A stretch of 64,000 nucleotides of DNA, taken from NCBI GenBank assembly GCA_028705495.1, contig JAQWDK010000007.1, forward strand, positions 1-64,000, read 5' to 3'. Positions 21,013 through 27,902 of the stretch are shown here, in pieces. Source of the DNA: Eubacteriales bacterium. GTDB lineage: Bacteria > Bacillota > Clostridia > Oscillospirales > CAG-382. The notes beneath the pieces were generated by a model. It did no database searches. It saw nothing but the letters and a program-made list of their open reading frames with translations, and was not told where the DNA came from. Each line of letters starts with the position of its first letter. The stretch's first letter is position 1. Made by a program: the position numbers and the translations under genes.

Positions 21013-21894
21013 ATGATTATACATATAGTTAAAGCCGGGGAAACAATGTCGTCCATTTCACGTGATTACGGGGTTTCGCTCGATTGGCTTCTGACAAACA
21101 ATATGGTTCCGAATCCCGACAACCTCCTCGTAGGGCAGTCGATTGTCATCATGTACCCTATAACGATACATATTGTACGTCCGGGGGATACTTTGACGAC
21201 GATAGCGAGAAGCTACGGGATCACATCGAATGAAATCTTCCGCAACAATATCACTCTATATGGAAACCCCGACATCTACCCCGGTCTCGCTCTTGTGATC
21301 GCATACGAAGGAACGTCGCCTTATTCTTTTTATGTCGGCGGTTATGCCTATCCTTATATCGACAAGAAACTGCTTAATCAGTCGCTGCCGTTTATGAGCC
21401 ATCTAATGCCATTTACTTATGGGTTTAAGTCGGACGGATCTCTTGTTATGCTCAACGATGAGGAACTTTTAGCGGCTGCGTTCGAATATGGTTCATCGCC
21501 TTATATGCATTTGTCCACCCTCAATGAAGAAGGGAACTTTGACAGCGAGCTTGCGACATCAATGTTGAACAATCTTGAGGCACAAAATGTACTGCTTCAA
21601 AATGTCCTTGATGTGATGATAGCAAAAAACTATGCAGGGCTTGACATAGACTTTGAATTTATCGGCGGTGAAAACGCACAGGAGTATATAGTATTTATAA
21701 ATAAAGCGACAAAGCTGATGAATTCCCAGGGTTATCCCGTTATTACCGCACTTGCGCCGAAAACATCGGATTCACAGCCGGGTATTCTTTACGAAGGTCA
21801 TGAATATGCGGGCATCGGCGGGGTTTCAAATTTTGTGCTCTTGATGACTTACGAATGGGGATATACATTTCCCCATACTTCTTACTGCCAATAA
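21013..21894 (+). CDS. LysM-GH18 spore peptidoglycan hydrolase, 5' part (interrupted gene)
   Basis: Two LysM peptidoglycan-binding modules (about residues 2-46 and 52-97) are followed by a glycoside hydrolase 18 barrel with the catalytic DxDxE signature at D211, D213 and E215. This is the layout of YaaH/SleL, N-acetylglucosaminidases of the spore coat/cortex made in the mother cell. The barrel breaks off after MTYEWGYT; the last eight codons (FPHTSYCQ) come from inserted DNA. The missing part lies at 27481-27902, and joining the two across the shared core gives a continuous 425-aa protein, the usual length. AAAGGA precedes the ATG. As it stands the product is truncated in its barrel and probably inactive. 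Confidence 0.85.
   Translation: MIIHIVKAGETMSSISRDYGVSLDWLLTNNMVPNPDNLLVGQSIVIMYPITIHIVRPGDTLTTIARSYGITSNEIFRNNITLYGNPDIYPGLALVIAYEGTSPYSFYVGGYAYPYIDKKLLNQSLPFMSHLMPFTYGFKSDGSLVMLNDEELLAAAFEYGSSPYMHLSTLNEEGNFDSELATSMLNNLEAQNVLLQNVLDVMIAKNYAGLDIDFEFIGGENAQEYIVFINKATKLMNSQGYPVITALAPKTSDSQPGILYEGHEYAGIGGVSNFVLLMTYEWGYTFPHTSYCQ
21850..21884. mobile_element. attL junction of the intervening element
   Basis: Host gene sequence ends and element sequence begins at the core ATATACAT (21861-21868). The element-side arm holds CTTCTTA (21878-21884), which mirrors TAAGAAG at 27459-27465 when the attP site is rebuilt; both lie 11 nt from the central AC (21865-21866). Confidence 0.8.
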
Positions 21895-21899
21895 AACAC

Positions 21900-21930
21900 T
21901 TGAGAGTATCGAAAGGTGCTCTATTTTTTT
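21900..21930 (+). terminator. Probable terminator at the left end of the element
   Basis: An imperfect GAG...CTC hairpin (about 21902-21921) followed by TATTTTTTT (21922-21930) would stop transcription arriving from the truncated GH18 gene. Confidence 0.5.
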
Positions 21931-21942
21931 GTGATGGGTATC

Positions 21943-21971
21943 TTGTTTTATTTTTCAAACAGTGGTACAAT
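21943..21971 (+). promoter_or_regulatory. Sigma-A-like promoter of ktrB
   Basis: TTGTTT at 21943-21948, 17-bp spacer, TACAAT at 21966-21971, about 24 nt before the AAGGAG ribosome-binding site of ktrB; the cargo therefore has its own promoter inside the element. Confidence 0.65.
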
Positions 21972-22009
21972 AACGCATCAGGAAATCATATAGGAAGGAG
22001 AGTATTTTA

Positions 22010-23332
22010 ATAAAAAATCACTTTTCTTTAAATTCGTTTCAAATTATAGCGCTTGGCTTTGCCGGGGTTATCTTAATCGGCGCTTTAATCTTAATGCTGC
22101 CGATTTCATCCTCAGCCGGAGTTGTAACACCTTTTACTGACGCTTTATTCACTTCAACGACCTCGGTTTGTGTTACTGGACTTGTTGTTAAGGACACCGG
22201 AACATATTGGTCTACATTCGGGCACAGCGTAATTCTGCTGTTGATTCAAATAGGCGGTTTAGGTGTCGTTACAGTTGCCGCATCATTTGCCTTAATCGCA
22301 GGGCGGCGCATAGGGCTTTTTCAGCGGAGCGCAATGCAAGAAGCGGTTGCAGCACCTAAAATAAGCGGAATTGTCAAGCTCACCACATTTATTCTCAAAG
22401 TCACATTTACAGTCGAGCTTATCGGCGCTGTTATTATGGCGCCAACTTTTATAAAAGATTTTGGATGGGGTCGGGGCATTTGGATGTCCTTCTTCCATTC
22501 CATTTCGGCGTTCTGCAACGCTGGTATCGACCTGATGGGTCAAAGAGAGCCTTTTTCATCAATGATAAGTTATGTCGGAAATCCGGCAATTAATATTGCG
22601 ATTATGGGTTTGATAATAATCGGCGGCATAGGCTTTCTGACTTGGGACGATATACGCAGTCACGGTATCCATATAAGAAAATACTGTATGCAAAGCAAAG
22701 TAATCCTTGTAATGACAGGCATTCTTATAATTGTTCCGACAACTTGCTTCTTCTTCCTCGAATTTGCCGATATGCCTTTTTGGGACAGGCTTTTAGCTTC
22801 CTTCTTTCAGGCTGTTACACCGAGAACTGCAGGTTTTAACACAGTTAATTTAGCGGCTATGAGCGAGCCGGGTCAGATGGCAATGGTTTTTCTGATGCTG
22901 GTTGGCGGCTCCCCCGGTTCTACTGCAGGCGGTATGAAAACGACCACCTTTGCGGTCCTTATCGCTTGCGCGGTCTCTATATTCCGTAAACGTGACAGCG
23001 CACAGTTTTTAGGTAGACGAATCGCACACGAGGTAATTTTAACCGCATCAACCATAACTCTGATGTATGTCAGCCTTTGTGTGGGAGGGGCGATGATAAT
23101 AAGCTATTATGAGGGACTGCCAATCCTGACTTGTATGTATGAAACCGCATCTGCTGTGGGCACTGTCGGACTGACGCTCGGCATCACACCTGAGCTTGGC
23201 ACCCTTTCAAGGTGGATACTTATACTGCTTATGTATATCGGCCGTATTGGCGGGCTAACACTTATTTATGCAACGTTATCGGGCAAAACTCAAATGGGTA
23301 AGTTTCCTCTGGAAAAAATAACAGTCGGATAG
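22010..23332 (+). CDS. ktrB: KtrB/TrkH-type potassium-transporting subunit
   Basis: Membrane subunit of a Ktr K+ (Na+-dependent) uptake system. The four pore-loop filters are visible: TTSVCVTGLVV, FCNAGIDLMG, TPRTAGFNT and SAVGTVGLTLG, each with its conserved glycine. Family homology starts well before the first ATG (22094): the residues FQIIALGFAGVILIGALILMLPI are encoded from 22034 onward. Between the upstream in-frame stop (21971-21973) and 22094 there is no ATG, GTG or TTG; AAGGAG at 21995-22000 lies 9 nt before an ATA codon at 22010. I therefore give 22010 as the likely non-standard start (440 aa, the usual KtrB length). It pairs with ktrA downstream. Confidence 0.85.
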   Translation: MKNHFSLNSFQIIALGFAGVILIGALILMLPISSSAGVVTPFTDALFTSTTSVCVTGLVVKDTGTYWSTFGHSVILLLIQIGGLGVVTVAASFALIAGRRIGLFQRSAMQEAVAAPKISGIVKLTTFILKVTFTVELIGAVIMAPTFIKDFGWGRGIWMSFFHSISAFCNAGIDLMGQREPFSSMISYVGNPAINIAIMGLIIIGGIGFLTWDDIRSHGIHIRKYCMQSKVILVMTGILIIVPTTCFFFLEFADMPFWDRLLASFFQAVTPRTAGFNTVNLAAMSEPGQMAMVFLMLVGGSPGSTAGGMKTTTFAVLIACAVSIFRKRDSAQFLGRRIAHEVILTASTITLMYVSLCVGGAMIISYYEGLPILTCMYETASAVGTVGLTLGITPELGTLSRWILILLMYIGRIGGLTLIYATLSGKTQMGKFPLEKITVG

Positions 23333-23476
23333 CGTGAATTATAGCTTAAGCTATTTCCGGCTACAGGCTATTCACGCATTGAAATTCAATTTCATTGAAT
23401 TTCCGAACGTTCAACAAAGCTATTTCCAGCTACAGATTATTCACGCAGACTATTCAAGAATGTGCCGCTTTGCGGC
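23333..23476. repeat. Repeat cluster between ktrB and ktrA
   Basis: Two 31-bp direct repeats (23348-23378 and 23417-23447) start AAGCTATTTCC and end TATTCACGCA; between them is an AATTCAATTTCATTGAATTT dyad (about 23383-23402). A GCCGCTTTGCGGC hairpin (23464-23476) follows and is shared with the segment before the gene at 209. Looks like a dispersed non-coding repeat that landed between the two subunit genes. Confidence 0.6.
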
Positions 23477-23491
23477 GGAATGGAATTTAAT

Positions 23492-24139
23492 ATGAAATCG
23501 ATTTTATTAATAGGACTTGGCAGATTTGGCAGACATATCGCCATTCAACTAAACCAGCTCGGACATCAGGTGATGGCGGTTGACCACGATGAAGAACGAG
23601 TAAACGATATTATGGGGGTTGTCACAAACGCACAAATCGGCGATAGCACAAACGAAGCGTTTCTCTCTTCCCTTGGTGTAAAGAATTTTGATGTATGTAT
23701 TGTTGCAATCGCAAATGATTTTCAAAGCTCCCTTGAAACGACTTCACTACTCAAAGAATTAGGAGCAAAAATGGTGGTTTCGAGAGCGGAACGGGACGGA
23801 CAAGCTAAACTGCTACTCCGCAACGGAGCTGATGAGGTTGTATATCCCGAAAAGCAGGTCGCAAAATGGGCGGCAATACGGTACAGCGCGGACCATATCC
23901 TCGACTATATCGAGCTTGATGAAACACATTCTATTTTTGAAGTTGCTGTACCTGAGGAATGGGTAGGTAAAACTGTCGGTCAAATTGATATCCGTAAAAA
24001 ATACAACGTCAATATAATGGCAGTAAAGCAAAACGAAAAAATGAATATGGAGGTTACACCGAACACAGTTTTAACAAATGATAAAACCCTATTGGTGCTC
24101 GGCGAGTATAAAGCTTTGCAAAAGTGCTTTAGGATATGA
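23492..24139 (+). CDS. ktrA: KtrA/TrkA-type RCK regulatory subunit
   Basis: A 215-aa cytoplasmic protein with an N-terminal RCK Rossmann domain (IGLGRFGRHIAIQLNQLGH, then VMAVDHDEERV) and a C-terminal RCK_C domain (VGQIDIRKKYNVNIMAV ... LLVLGEYKAL). Such subunits form octameric rings that gate KtrB by binding ATP/ADP, and c-di-AMP in many Firmicutes. The start at 23492 follows the family N-terminus (MKSILLIGLG); in-frame ATG 23480 and the open frame from 23462 would only add repeat-derived residues. It lies 159 bp after ktrB, separated by repeats. Its stop is embedded in the first of two long hairpins. Confidence 0.9.
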   Translation: MKSILLIGLGRFGRHIAIQLNQLGHQVMAVDHDEERVNDIMGVVTNAQIGDSTNEAFLSSLGVKNFDVCIVAIANDFQSSLETTSLLKELGAKMVVSRAERDGQAKLLLRNGADEVVYPEKQVAKWAAIRYSADHILDYIELDETHSIFEVAVPEEWVGKTVGQIDIRKKYNVNIMAVKQNEKMNMEVTPNTVLTNDKTLLVLGEYKALQKCFRI

Positions 24140-24211
24140 CATTCTGAATTAAAATTCCGAATGTCATATCCTCGAAATATTATTGAAATATAAAAATTTC
24201 AATAATATTTC
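24131..24211 (+). repeat. Two consecutive perfect hairpins after ktrA
   Basis: A 14-bp perfect stem, AGGATATGACATTC (24131-24144) with 24159-24172, contains the ktrA stop codon; a 16-bp perfect stem, GAAATATTATTGAAAT (24174-24189) with 24196-24211, follows with a 6-nt loop. No long T tract follows, so they may terminate weakly or stabilise the ktr mRNA end. Confidence 0.7.
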
Positions 24212-24297
24212 TGTTGTATTCCTTACCAAAATAAAATTCTGTATAATTATTTTTCCCTCTTTCTTTGCATGGAAATACAAATAAAAGTGGAGAAAAA

Positions 24298-25617
24298 TTG
24301 ATTTTAGCATTAATAATTTTTATTATTACTTATGTCCTGATGCTCGTTTTACAAAAATACAGACCTTGGATTGCGCTAAGCAGTGCGGCGGTATTTATTG
24401 CGCTTGGACTTTTTGGAGTGTATAATTTTACAATCTTCACCGCGCTGAATGCGGTCGATTACAATGTCCTTATGATGATCGGCGGAACAATGGGAATTGT
24501 CACACTTTTTATAGAAAGCAAAATGCCGGCAAGGCTTGCAGAAATGCTGATTTCAAAAGTGCCGAATGTAAAATGGGCAGTCACGGTATTGGCTTTATTC
24601 GCCGGAGTTGTAAGTGCATTTGTCGACAATGTTGCAACTGTTTTAATGGTAGCGCCAATCGGCTTGGCTATTTCAAAAAAACTAAAGGTATCTCCTGTTC
24701 CAGTGCTTATCGCAATTGCTGTTTCTTCGAATCTTCAAGGCGCTGCGACATTGGTCGGAGACACCACAAGCATACTGCTTGGCGGCTATGCTGAGATGAA
24801 TTTCCTCGATTTCTTCTGGATGAAGGGGAAACCGGGCATATTCTGGGGTGTTGAACTCGGCGCTATAGCATCTATTTTTGTACTTCTCTTTTTGTTCCGA
24901 AAAGAAAATCAAGGCGTATCAGCAGAGGTTGAAACAGAAGTTACCGACTACTTCCCGTCCTTTCTGATGATTGGCACGGTAGTGCTCTTAATTATAGCCT
25001 CCTTTTTACCTGAGCCGACAAGTGCGGTATTGCAGACAATTTATAGCCTCAGAAGCGGTTTAATCTGTCTTATTCTTTGTTTAATAGGCATCATCCGCTC
25101 ATGTATTATAAAGAAATCAGGCGAAACCTTTAAGCAAGTATGGGACGAATTAGATAAAGACACATTGCTGCTTCTCTTTGGATTATTTATTGTGATAGAA
25201 GGCATCAAAACAGCTGGTGTTATCGATGCGGTCGCAGATTTATTCTATAAGGTATCAGGGGACAACCCTTTCCTTCTTTACACTCTCATTGTCTTTGCTT
25301 CGGTTATATTATCGGCATTTATCGACAATATCCCGTATGTTGCCACAATGCTTCCGGTTGTTTCAAGCATAGCAGCGCTAATGAATGGCGGTGCAGGAAT
25401 GGAGCCTTATGTGTTCTATTTTGGTCTTCTTACCGGTGCAACCCTTGGCGGTAACTTGACACCGATAGGAGCATCTGCAAATATAGCCGCTATCGGTATA
25501 CTCCGCAAAAACGGAGAGACTGTCAGCTTAAAGGACTTTTTAAGAATCGGTGTGCCGTTTACATTATTTGCCGTTTTAGTAGGATATGTTTTTATATGGC
25601 TGGTCTGGGGAATGTAA
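24298..25617 (+). CDS. Ion-transporter-superfamily permease (ArsB/NhaD/SLC13-like)
   Basis: A 439-aa membrane protein with about 11 transmembrane segments in two inverted repeats; each repeat carries the family's hairpin motif (FVDNVATVLMVAP and FIDNIPYVATMLP), as in ArsB, NhaD and related anion or Na+/H+ carriers. The substrate cannot be told from sequence. TTG at 24298 is chosen as start because GTGGAG lies 5 nt upstream and the hydrophobic N-terminus begins there. A terminator follows at 25643. Its place after ktrAB suggests a shared job in K+/Na+ or osmotic balance. Confidence 0.82.
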   Translation: MILALIIFIITYVLMLVLQKYRPWIALSSAAVFIALGLFGVYNFTIFTALNAVDYNVLMMIGGTMGIVTLFIESKMPARLAEMLISKVPNVKWAVTVLALFAGVVSAFVDNVATVLMVAPIGLAISKKLKVSPVPVLIAIAVSSNLQGAATLVGDTTSILLGGYAEMNFLDFFWMKGKPGIFWGVELGAIASIFVLLFLFRKENQGVSAEVETEVTDYFPSFLMIGTVVLLIIASFLPEPTSAVLQTIYSLRSGLICLILCLIGIIRSCIIKKSGETFKQVWDELDKDTLLLLFGLFIVIEGIKTAGVIDAVADLFYKVSGDNPFLLYTLIVFASVILSAFIDNIPYVATMLPVVSSIAALMNGGAGMEPYVFYFGLLTGATLGGNLTPIGASANIAAIGILRKNGETVSLKDFLRIGVPFTLFAVLVGYVFIWLVWGM

Positions 25618-25642
25618 AACAAAAAGACAATAATAAATTAAT

Positions 25643-25681
25643 TAAGCCGTGCAACCTTTTCGGGTCGCGCGGCTTATTTTT
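25643..25681 (+). terminator. Intrinsic terminator after the transporter gene
   Basis: TAAGCCGTGC (25643-25652) pairs with GCGCGGCTTA (25667-25676), with an inner ACC/GGT stem, followed by TTTTT. It separates the cargo genes from the recombinase operon. Confidence 0.85.
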
Positions 25682-25703
25682 AACTTGTTATAAAGGCATA
25701 CAA
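25674..25703 (+). promoter_or_regulatory. Possible sporulation (sigma-E-like) promoter of the recombinase operon
   Basis: CATACAA at 25697-25703 resembles the sigma-E -10 (CATACAnT); TTATTTTT at 25674-25681, about 15 bp upstream, resembles its -35 loosely and overlaps the terminator's T tract. No good sigma-A promoter was seen before 25737. Weak evidence. Confidence 0.25.
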
Positions 25704-25736
25704 GGCCTCATATATTAGAAAAAAGGGGGGCTTGTA

Positions 25737-25904
25737 ATGGCGATAATAAAAGTAGTGGAGTTCGGAAGCTGTGTAGTTGAAATATATGACGACTACATAA
25801 CAAATGAAAGCTTAGAAAAGATAAAGCGGCAACTGTCGGAAATCCTTAGCAGAGAACTGTCAAAAAACCCTGAGTTTTACGATGAAATTAGAAAAACCGA
25901 ATAG
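25737..25904 (+). CDS. 55-aa protein upstream of the recombinase; candidate directionality factor
   Basis: A short gene (ATG 25737, TAG 25902-25904) with a strong GGGGGG site 6 nt upstream. The product begins MAIIKVVEFGSCVVEIYDDY and continues as a charged, probably helical segment ending EIRKTE. I do not recognise a family. It ends 12 nt before the recombinase start, so the two are almost certainly cotranscribed. Recombination directionality factors of serine integrases are often this small (SprB of SPbeta is about this size) and unrelated to each other in sequence, so this is an inferred candidate only. An antitoxin-like or regulatory role is also possible. Confidence 0.65.
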   Translation: MAIIKVVEFGSCVVEIYDDYITNESLEKIKRQLSEILSRELSKNPEFYDEIRKTE

Positions 25905-25916
25905 AGCGAGGTTCAA

Positions 25917-27461
25917 ATGGAGCGATATGCGATTTATTTAAGAAAGTCAAGAGCAGATTTGGAACTTGAAAAGTACGGCGAAACGGAAACCCTTGCGAGG
26001 CACGAAAAAACACTAATTGAGCTTGCAGAGAAAAAGAAACTTTATATAGCTGGAATATACAAAGAAGTTGTATCAGGTGAAACAATCAGCGCAAGACCCG
26101 AGGTGCAAAAGCTCTTAACGGATGTAGAAGGCGGACAATACACCGGCGTGATAGTGATGGAGATTGAAAGGCTTGCAAGGGGCGATACAATTGATCAGGG
26201 TATAATCGCAAAAACCTTCAAAGAAAGCTCAACAAAAATAGTAACTCCTTCAAAAATATACGATCCGGACAACGAATTTGATGAAGAGTATTTCGAATTC
26301 GGCTTATTTATGAGCCGGCGGGAATACAAAACTATAAACCGCCGCATCCAGAGGGGACGAATAGCTTCTGCCAAAGAGGGTAAAGCAATTATGTCAACTG
26401 CGCCTTACGGATATGATAAAGTAAAAATTAAAAACGGAAAAGGTTTTACCCTAAAACCTAATAAAGAAGCAAAAATCGTAAAACTTATATACAGTCTTTA
26501 CAACTGTGGCGATGGTGCGAACTCTATTGCAAAAAAGCTTGATGAGATGAAAGTAGGGCCGAGAAAAGGTGATAAATGGAGCAAATCGACAATAACCGAC
26601 ATTCTCAAAAACCCAGTGTATATGGGAATGGTCAGATGGGGGTACGAAAAAGAAAAGAAGAAAATTACCCAAGGAACTGAAAGAACCGTAAGAGAAAAAA
26701 GAGATGAATATATTTATGTAATAGGTTTACACCCTGCAATAATAACGAAAGAAACATTTGAAAAAGCTCAAAAAAGAAGAAAGCACAACACACATAAATG
26801 CACTACACTCAGCAACGAATTAAAAAACCCGCTTGCAGGGCTTATATACTGTCAAAAATGCGGCAGTTTGATGTCGAGATTGGGCTGCAATCGAAAGAAC
26901 AAATACGATTCAATTATTTGCCTAAACAGAGATTGTGATAATGTGTCAACTCCTTTATTCCTTCTCGAAAACGCAGTTATTAAAGCATTGGAAGAATGCA
27001 TCGGAAAATTAGAAATAAATATTGAGCTTAAGAAAGATTATGTACTTGGAGCGGTAGAAGAAGATGCCGCAAAGGAGTTAAATAAATCATTAGCGACAAC
27101 CGAAAAACAGCTGTCGCAAACATACGATTTCTTGGAGCAGGGGTTGTATAGTCCCGAGGTTTTCAAGCAAAGAAATAGCGAGCTTCAAACGAGAAAAATA
27201 GAAACTGAACAGGCGATAATAAAGATAATTGAGGAAGATAAAAATAGAAATTGCGCTATTTTACGCATACCACAAGCAAAAAACTTTTTTAAAGTCTATC
27301 ACAAAATCCCTACCGCAGAAGGAAAGAATCAATCTCTGAAAATTATAATAAACAAAGTAGAATACCTAAAAGAAAGAGCCAATACAAAAGGGAGCGGTAT
27401 GAAGGAAAATTTTAAGGTTAAAATCTATCCCAACTTTGATATGAAAAACGATTACATATAA
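25917..27461 (+). CDS. Large serine recombinase (site-specific integrase/excisionase)
   Basis: A 514-aa large serine recombinase. The catalytic domain has the nucleophile in YLRKSRAD (Ser11), VSGETISARP, and MEIERLARGD with active-site arginines; the recombinase domain (about 150-265) includes RRIQRGRIASAKEGKA and SIAKKLDEMKVGPRKGDKWSKSTI; a zinc ribbon (CQKCGS...CLNRDC) lies near 305-340, then a coiled-coil (about 350-440). All parts needed for activity appear present. It should cut both strands at the central dinucleotide of the att sites, here AC. Its TAA stop (27459-27461) is part of the TAAGAAG arm of attR. GCGAGG precedes the ATG. Confidence 0.95.
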   Translation: MERYAIYLRKSRADLELEKYGETETLARHEKTLIELAEKKKLYIAGIYKEVVSGETISARPEVQKLLTDVEGGQYTGVIVMEIERLARGDTIDQGIIAKTFKESSTKIVTPSKIYDPDNEFDEEYFEFGLFMSRREYKTINRRIQRGRIASAKEGKAIMSTAPYGYDKVKIKNGKGFTLKPNKEAKIVKLIYSLYNCGDGANSIAKKLDEMKVGPRKGDKWSKSTITDILKNPVYMGMVRWGYEKEKKKITQGTERTVREKRDEYIYVIGLHPAIITKETFEKAQKRRKHNTHKCTTLSNELKNPLAGLIYCQKCGSLMSRLGCNRKNKYDSIICLNRDCDNVSTPLFLLENAVIKALEECIGKLEINIELKKDYVLGAVEEDAAKELNKSLATTEKQLSQTYDFLEQGLYSPEVFKQRNSELQTRKIETEQAIIKIIEEDKNRNCAILRIPQAKNFFKVYHKIPTAEGKNQSLKIIINKVEYLKERANTKGSGMKENFKVKIYPNFDMKNDYI

Positions 27462-27495
27462 GAAGAACACGCATATACATATGGCCCCCCGATGC
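27455..27495. mobile_element. attR junction of the intervening element
   Basis: Core ATATACAT at 27473-27480 with central AC at 27477-27478. Left of it, TAAGAAG (27459-27465) is the element arm; right of it host GH18 coding sequence resumes with ATGGCCCCCC. Confidence 0.8.
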
Positions 27496-27902
27496 CGGTG
27501 TCGCCAATACCGTCCATAAGAGCGGTCCTCGACTATGCAGTCACGAGAATTCCACGGGAAAAAATATATTTAGGAATCTCGAATTACGGCTATAACTGGA
27601 CTCTTCCGTTTGTTCCGGGAAAATCAAAGGCAGATTCCATTTCAACCTATGAAGCGCTGGAAATTGCGGCACGAAATAACGCTGTCATACAGTACGACAG
27701 CGATGCGGAAGCGCCGTTCTTTGTGTATAACGAATTCGGAGTCAACCATATTGTATGGTTTGAGGACGCTCGCAGCATCAACGCAAAGCTCGGGCTTGTC
27801 AACGAATATAGATTCCACGGCGCACTGTACTGGAACTTGATGCGCGCGAACCCGCAGAACCTGCTTGTCCTCAACGCACAGGTTAATATAAGAAGATTTT
27901 AG
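27481..27902 (+). pseudogene. LysM-GH18 hydrolase, 3' part (separated from its 5' part)
   Basis: Continuation of the gene at 21013: read in frame from the core it gives GPPMPVSPIPSIRAVLDYAV, then YLGISNYGYNWTLPF and WFEDARSINAKLGLVNEYRFHGALYWNL, the last third of the GH18 barrel as found in YaaH/SleL. Alone it would start at ATG 27492 without a ribosome-binding site and would lack the catalytic residues, so it is probably not expressed as such. 21013-21868 plus 27481-27902 is 1,278 nt, 425 codons and a stop. No frameshift or stop is seen in either half, which suggests selection still acts on the joined gene. Confidence 0.88.

Follow-up and report, generated by a model that had tools for sequence, protein, structure and literature searches.

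A dyad centered on an AC dinucleotide as the predicted crossover site of a large serine recombinase element in a LysM-GH18 gene

Introduction

Sporulation genes interrupted by serine-recombinase elements are known from several bacteria. In Bacillus subtilis, the SPbeta prophage lies in spsM, a spore gene that is rebuilt upon excision (PMC4191935). Regulated excision has been demonstrated for gin, an element in gerE of Bacillus cereus that acts with GirC and GirX (PMC5595907), and excision has also been demonstrated for skin in sigK and yin in yabG (PMC5025042, PMC10747680). On a broader scale, the available portion of the large serine recombinase (LSR) catalog of Durrant et al. describes distantly related LSRs that converge on one conserved coding site; the convergent targets named there are a Mg-chelatase/ATP-dependent protease and a prolyl isomerase, and in that portion the word sporulation is confined to the reference list (PMC10083194).

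Here we examine an integrated element of 5.6 kb in a contig of a Eubacteriales bacterium; the whole stretch of 64,000 nucleotides that was analyzed is called the window. The window system resembles SPbeta in that a serine recombinase broadly related to SprA/YokA sits in a probable spore gene, but SPbeta is an active prophage with another target gene, whereas the window element carries transporter cargo and its excision in sporulation is a prediction. Like gin, which has a common core of 9 bp, it is a non-phage element with a serine recombinase in a sporulation gene; unlike it, gin spans 28.6 kb and encodes three recombinases. Skin and yin are likewise serine-recombinase elements in sporulation genes, with different target genes.

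Results

An element with a large serine recombinase splits a LysM-GH18 gene

The element and the two halves of the gene around it comprise the following features:

21013..21868, forward strand: 5' half of a LysM(x2)-GH18 gene, YaaH/SleL-like (Pfam LysM, partial GH18)
22004..23332, forward strand: TrkH-family K+ transporter, cargo, probable ATT start (PF02386; TIGR00933 below the curated cut-off)
23492..24139, forward strand: TrkA-type K+ channel regulator, cargo (PF02254, PF02080)
24298..25617, forward strand: CitMHS/ArsB-like ion transporter, cargo (PF03600)
25737..25904, forward strand: 55-aa open reading frame just upstream of the recombinase (no family match)
25917..27461, forward strand: large serine recombinase, 514 aa, with a YLRKS catalytic motif (PF00239, PF07508, PF13408)
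27481..27902, forward strand: 3' half of the GH18 gene (PF00704 C-terminal part; tblastn with the rejoined protein)

The reading frame of the 5' half continues into the element as far as a stop at 21894. With the element removed, the halves are in frame and encode a 425-aa protein, to which an intact homolog from the same genus is 75% identical. Kinship of the interrupted gene to yaaH is suggested by its domain layout, and yaaH of B. subtilis is listed under sigE (PMC10653849). The GH18 gene is probably needed for spore germination, and the window's genome encodes Spo0A and SpoIVA.

The sole recombinase in the element has Resolvase, Recombinase and Zn ribbon domains, all above their cut-offs, and the nearest solved structure is that of SPbeta YokA/SprA (9dxh, E 7e-45). 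The cargo consists of ion transporters, with no phage genes. By position, the 55-aa frame is a candidate directionality factor; a family search returned no match for it, its hits elsewhere were all weak, and no directionality factor was identified. A sigE-like promoter match upstream of the recombinase was weak, reaching a level attained by 4% of shuffles, and matching to spore-sigma promoters was set aside for this weakness.

The rebuilt attP is symmetric about AC

The ends of the element are marked by a direct repeat, ATATACAT, which has exactly two copies in the window. The proposed sites are:

21861..21868, forward strand: attL core ATATACAT, with the proposed crossover AC at 21865-21866
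21867..21884, forward strand: attP right arm, on the element side of attL, with CTTCTTA at 21878-21884
27459..27476, forward strand: attP left arm, on the element side of attR, with TAAGAAG at 27459-27465
27473..27480, forward strand: attR core ATATACAT, with AC at 27477-27478

Rejoining the element ends gives an attP of TAAGAAG-AACACGC-ATATACAT-TTCCCCATA-CTTCTTA, with its left TAAGAAG overlapping the recombinase stop codon. A reading made from the letters of the window alone (the sequence-only reading) had reported that the arms are symmetric about AC, and we reproduced its counts exactly: outward from AC, 12 of 18 positions match, including 7 of 7 at positions 12-18. Symmetry weakens past position 18, to 13 of 24 overall, and one-arm shuffling over these 24 positions gave p = 0.003. 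As a control, pairs of equal 8-mers lying 4-8 kb apart in the window were rejoined in the same way and scored at the best center within the 8-mer; 17 of 6,894 such junctions had at least 12 matches (p ~0.0025). Taken alone, the dyad is thus suggestive, not decisive.

The rebuilt attB reads GGGG-ATAT-AC-ATAT-GGCC, in which AC forms the first two bases of a Thr codon within the peptide TYEWGYTYGPP. The earlier description of AC between two copies of ATAT is therefore correct as sequence, but the flanks do not stand as a feature of the site: they are the codons TAT ACA TAT (Tyr-Thr-Tyr), and because most intact GH18 homologs lack them (e.g. GGG TAC ACC TAC), they cannot be a site requirement. Such coding origins, together with the roughly 0.25% of random junctions that equal the attP score, would be the basis for supposing that the symmetry arose by chance or from codons and marks no recombination site at all. 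We give this idea almost no credence, as the symmetry recurs in three AC-, five GA- and two TA-centered elements of the same gene and in 21 of the 23 Mn-catalase-gene elements, both described below.

Other elements enter the same gene at nearly the same codon

When 394 genomes of the order were searched with the rejoined protein, about 117 had a clear ortholog, and in 12 of them, not counting the window's, the gene was split near residues 280-287. Two more cases, reached through relatives of the recombinase (L009, L010), bring the total to 14 further genomes, all split at nearly the same codon by elements of several LSR lineages. For ten of these insertions both junctions were readable and attP and attB could be rebuilt, and in all ten the best dyad center in the scanned range is a dinucleotide common to both ends.

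In three of the ten, the center is the very AC, in the Thr codon, that is used in the window, with 18 (G387), 20 (G415, L010) and 15 (G414, L009) matches over 24 positions, so that the window's attP has the weakest symmetry of the four. The recombinases of these three share 41%, 47% and 49% identity with that of the window. Five more (G096, G307, G292, G213 and G405; 12-21 matches) center on the GA of a Glu codon that precedes the Thr by four codons, and two (G321, 13 matches; G351a, 16 matches), whose recombinases form a separate clade, on TA of the Tyr codon preceding that Glu. Each of the three dinucleotides occupies positions 1 and 2 of the codon for a well-conserved residue, which is where a coding target varies least. 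The sequence-only reading had proposed aligning att sites from related copies and had named different ends in such copies as evidence against it. Some relatives do agree with the window to the base at AC; in the others, each with a dyad of its own, the center is another dinucleotide that lies four or five codons upstream.

These comparisons also bear on where within the repeat the strands are exchanged. The crossover could lie elsewhere in ATATACAT, the symmetry about AC being accidental, since a direct repeat cannot separate positions within its 8 bp and the symmetry close to the center is imperfect. We regard this as improbable: alternative centers in or near the core reach at most 8 of 18 matches, and the three other AC-centered elements share different stretches with the target (ATACATAT in G387, others in G415 and G414) yet have the same AC center. 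No excised circle or empty site was seen in the window's genome, and the attP pattern was absent from the viral contigs searched; because no excised circle was found, the crossover position in the window is one that we infer from symmetry. We conclude, with a probability of about 0.9, that the 5.6-kb integrated element carries a large serine recombinase whose attP is this dyad, with crossover at AC. The predicted crossover at this dinucleotide gains support from three other elements.

In a quick recombinase tree, of which we use the placements only, as the target labels are too crude, the window's enzyme groups with those of G414 and G415 while that of G387 lies elsewhere; AC specificity may therefore have arisen more than once. 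The closest recombinase in a relative (G005, 54-55% identical) was considered and set aside: it is not in a GH18 gene but follows a jag homolog, with an intact GH18 gene nearby.

Three further observations concern individual sites. The gene of G351 contains two insertions (L159, L160), at residues ~282 and ~322, with recombinases from different clades; no clear dyad center was found within the core of the second. The TA-centered elements of G321 (L152) and G351a (L159) have their recombinases in opposite orientations with respect to the target gene. A palindromic dinucleotide would permit this, a reading that is only suggestive because the two enzymes are 55% identical. In G189, two contigs (L163, L164) break in the GH18 gene at AC, the N part ending in GGGGATATAC and the C part starting with ACCTACGG, possibly reflecting a mixed population of integrated and excised forms.

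attP and attB differ by the 5-bp offset of LSR sites

In Listeria LSR sites, an outer zinc-domain motif lies 5 bp closer to the center in attB than in attP (PMC3783163). The A118/LI integrase of Listeria resembles the window system in this shifted motif and in the dyad about a central dinucleotide, and differs from it in sequence motifs and target (PMC3783163). We scored attP positions 15-23 against attB at each offset from 0 to 10. Agreement peaked at offset 5 across the 11 GH18 sites (38%, against 18-30% at other offsets; permutation p = 0.0004), in the window alone (56%, against 14-33%) and in the 23 Mn-catalase-gene elements (55% vs 12-35%); G414 taken alone had no clear peak there. The offset supports the identification of these sequences as LSR sites. 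It is nearly independent of the center chosen and so cannot place the crossover; the center rests on the dyads.

The split gene may remain in use

Whether such insertions simply destroy the gene can be judged best in G213 and G405, two species that carry the same element (L155, L156, L157, L158), with recombinases 95% identical. At synonymous sites the recombinase (0.48) and the two gene halves (0.47 and 0.52) are equally diverged, and dN/dS values of 0.08 and 0.03 show that both halves are under strong purifying selection. These figures are most simply explained if the element has been in place since the species diverged and the gene is still used, including the half that would be untranslatable within the whole protein without excision; this one pair is the case for vertical inheritance. 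For G242, no copy of a recombinase of the G213/G405 type is assembled, and its short element end seems nearer to that of G405 than the host gene is. The window's copy retains all 60 columns that are invariant in 29 intact homologs and shows no acceleration relative to G001, an appearance that a recent insertion would also give. In the split GH18 genes examined, no stop codon precedes the junction.

The opposing view is that the LSR insertion is real but merely inactivating, leaving a dead GH18 gene with no restoration in sporulation. It draws on the failure to identify a regulated recombinase or directionality factor, on the weakness of the sigE-like match, whose level 4% of shuffles attain, and on cargo of ion transporters rather than phage genes; against it stand the intact frames ahead of the junctions, the substitution pattern of G213 and G405 and the unaccelerated copy in the window. 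We lean against inactivation, while considering it a serious possibility. The window element interrupts a putative spore gene, assigned by its yaaH-like domain layout, in a spore former and restores the frame when removed; it thus fits a skin-like sporulation gene-intervening element, whose developmental excision we predict by analogy.

Related recombinases enter a second probable spore gene

Among 80 loci with recombinases 40-49% identical to the window's, 66 have half of a Mn-catalase-family gene (CotJC-like, PF05067) with foreign sequence at the break. Most of the recombinases that are 46-49% identical break this gene at GTEELAHLE (L011-L084; e.g. L015:6536-7003 and L015:9986-11545). Where both element ends were available, a dyad lies about GA of a Glu codon in 21 of 23. 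The name CotJC-like was assigned by family and by neighboring genes that we take to be CotJB-like, rather than by a dedicated model. Related recombinases also adjoin a shortened asparagine synthase gene starting at DEIFGGYPWY (L063, L068, L148), an apparent third target.

Discussion

LSR recombination proceeds by cutting, rotation and pairing, and the window system may be pictured in these terms. Two recombinase protomers would bind attP, on its two arms, and another two would bind attB within the GH18 gene; all four strands would be cut at AC, leaving 2-nt overhangs; the pairs would rotate, and ligation would need AC to pair, fixing the orientation and giving attL (21861-21868) and attR (27473-27480). 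Excision, in which a directionality factor presumably takes part, would restore the YaaH/SleL-like gene exactly in frame, and may be timed to sporulation as for skin or SPbeta. Intact orthologs without the element, rejoining in frame, the common AC center and the 5-bp offset are what we observe.

The site has textbook LSR architecture and its mechanism is ordinary LSR biology. Less expected is the choice of target: spore genes are hit repeatedly by related recombinases, which suggests that excision may mend the gene in sporulation. A symmetry seen by eye has become a tested prediction of the crossover. The GH18 and Mn-catalase spore genes were not among the targets of intervening elements that we found in the literature, and here many related recombinases of uncultured gut bacteria hit them. 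If the elements do leave in sporulation, routine mending of spore genes by excision in gut Clostridia becomes testable, and the paired att sites are candidate LSR substrates.

Taking these targets together, we tentatively propose, at slightly less than even odds, that a broad LSR clade of gut Clostridia and some Bacilli has specialized in late spore genes (GH18, Mn catalase and possibly asparagine synthase), which it enters at conserved codons, its elements persisting because excision takes place in the mother cell, a cell that will die in any case. If so, reconstitution of genes in sporulation would be widespread and repeatedly evolved, beyond a few Bacillus and Clostridioides oddities.

Two further homologs were also noted. 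The window's genome has a second recombinase (L145:5102-6148, contig C6), 53% identical, which gives no att pair because its N-terminal part has been lost beside a gene that we take to be an IS30-like transposase. A 79% homolog of the CitMHS-like cargo gene lies in G072 (L223:5194-6516), outside any element and with no TrkH, TrkA or recombinase gene beside it, so the cargo may be a chromosomal capture.
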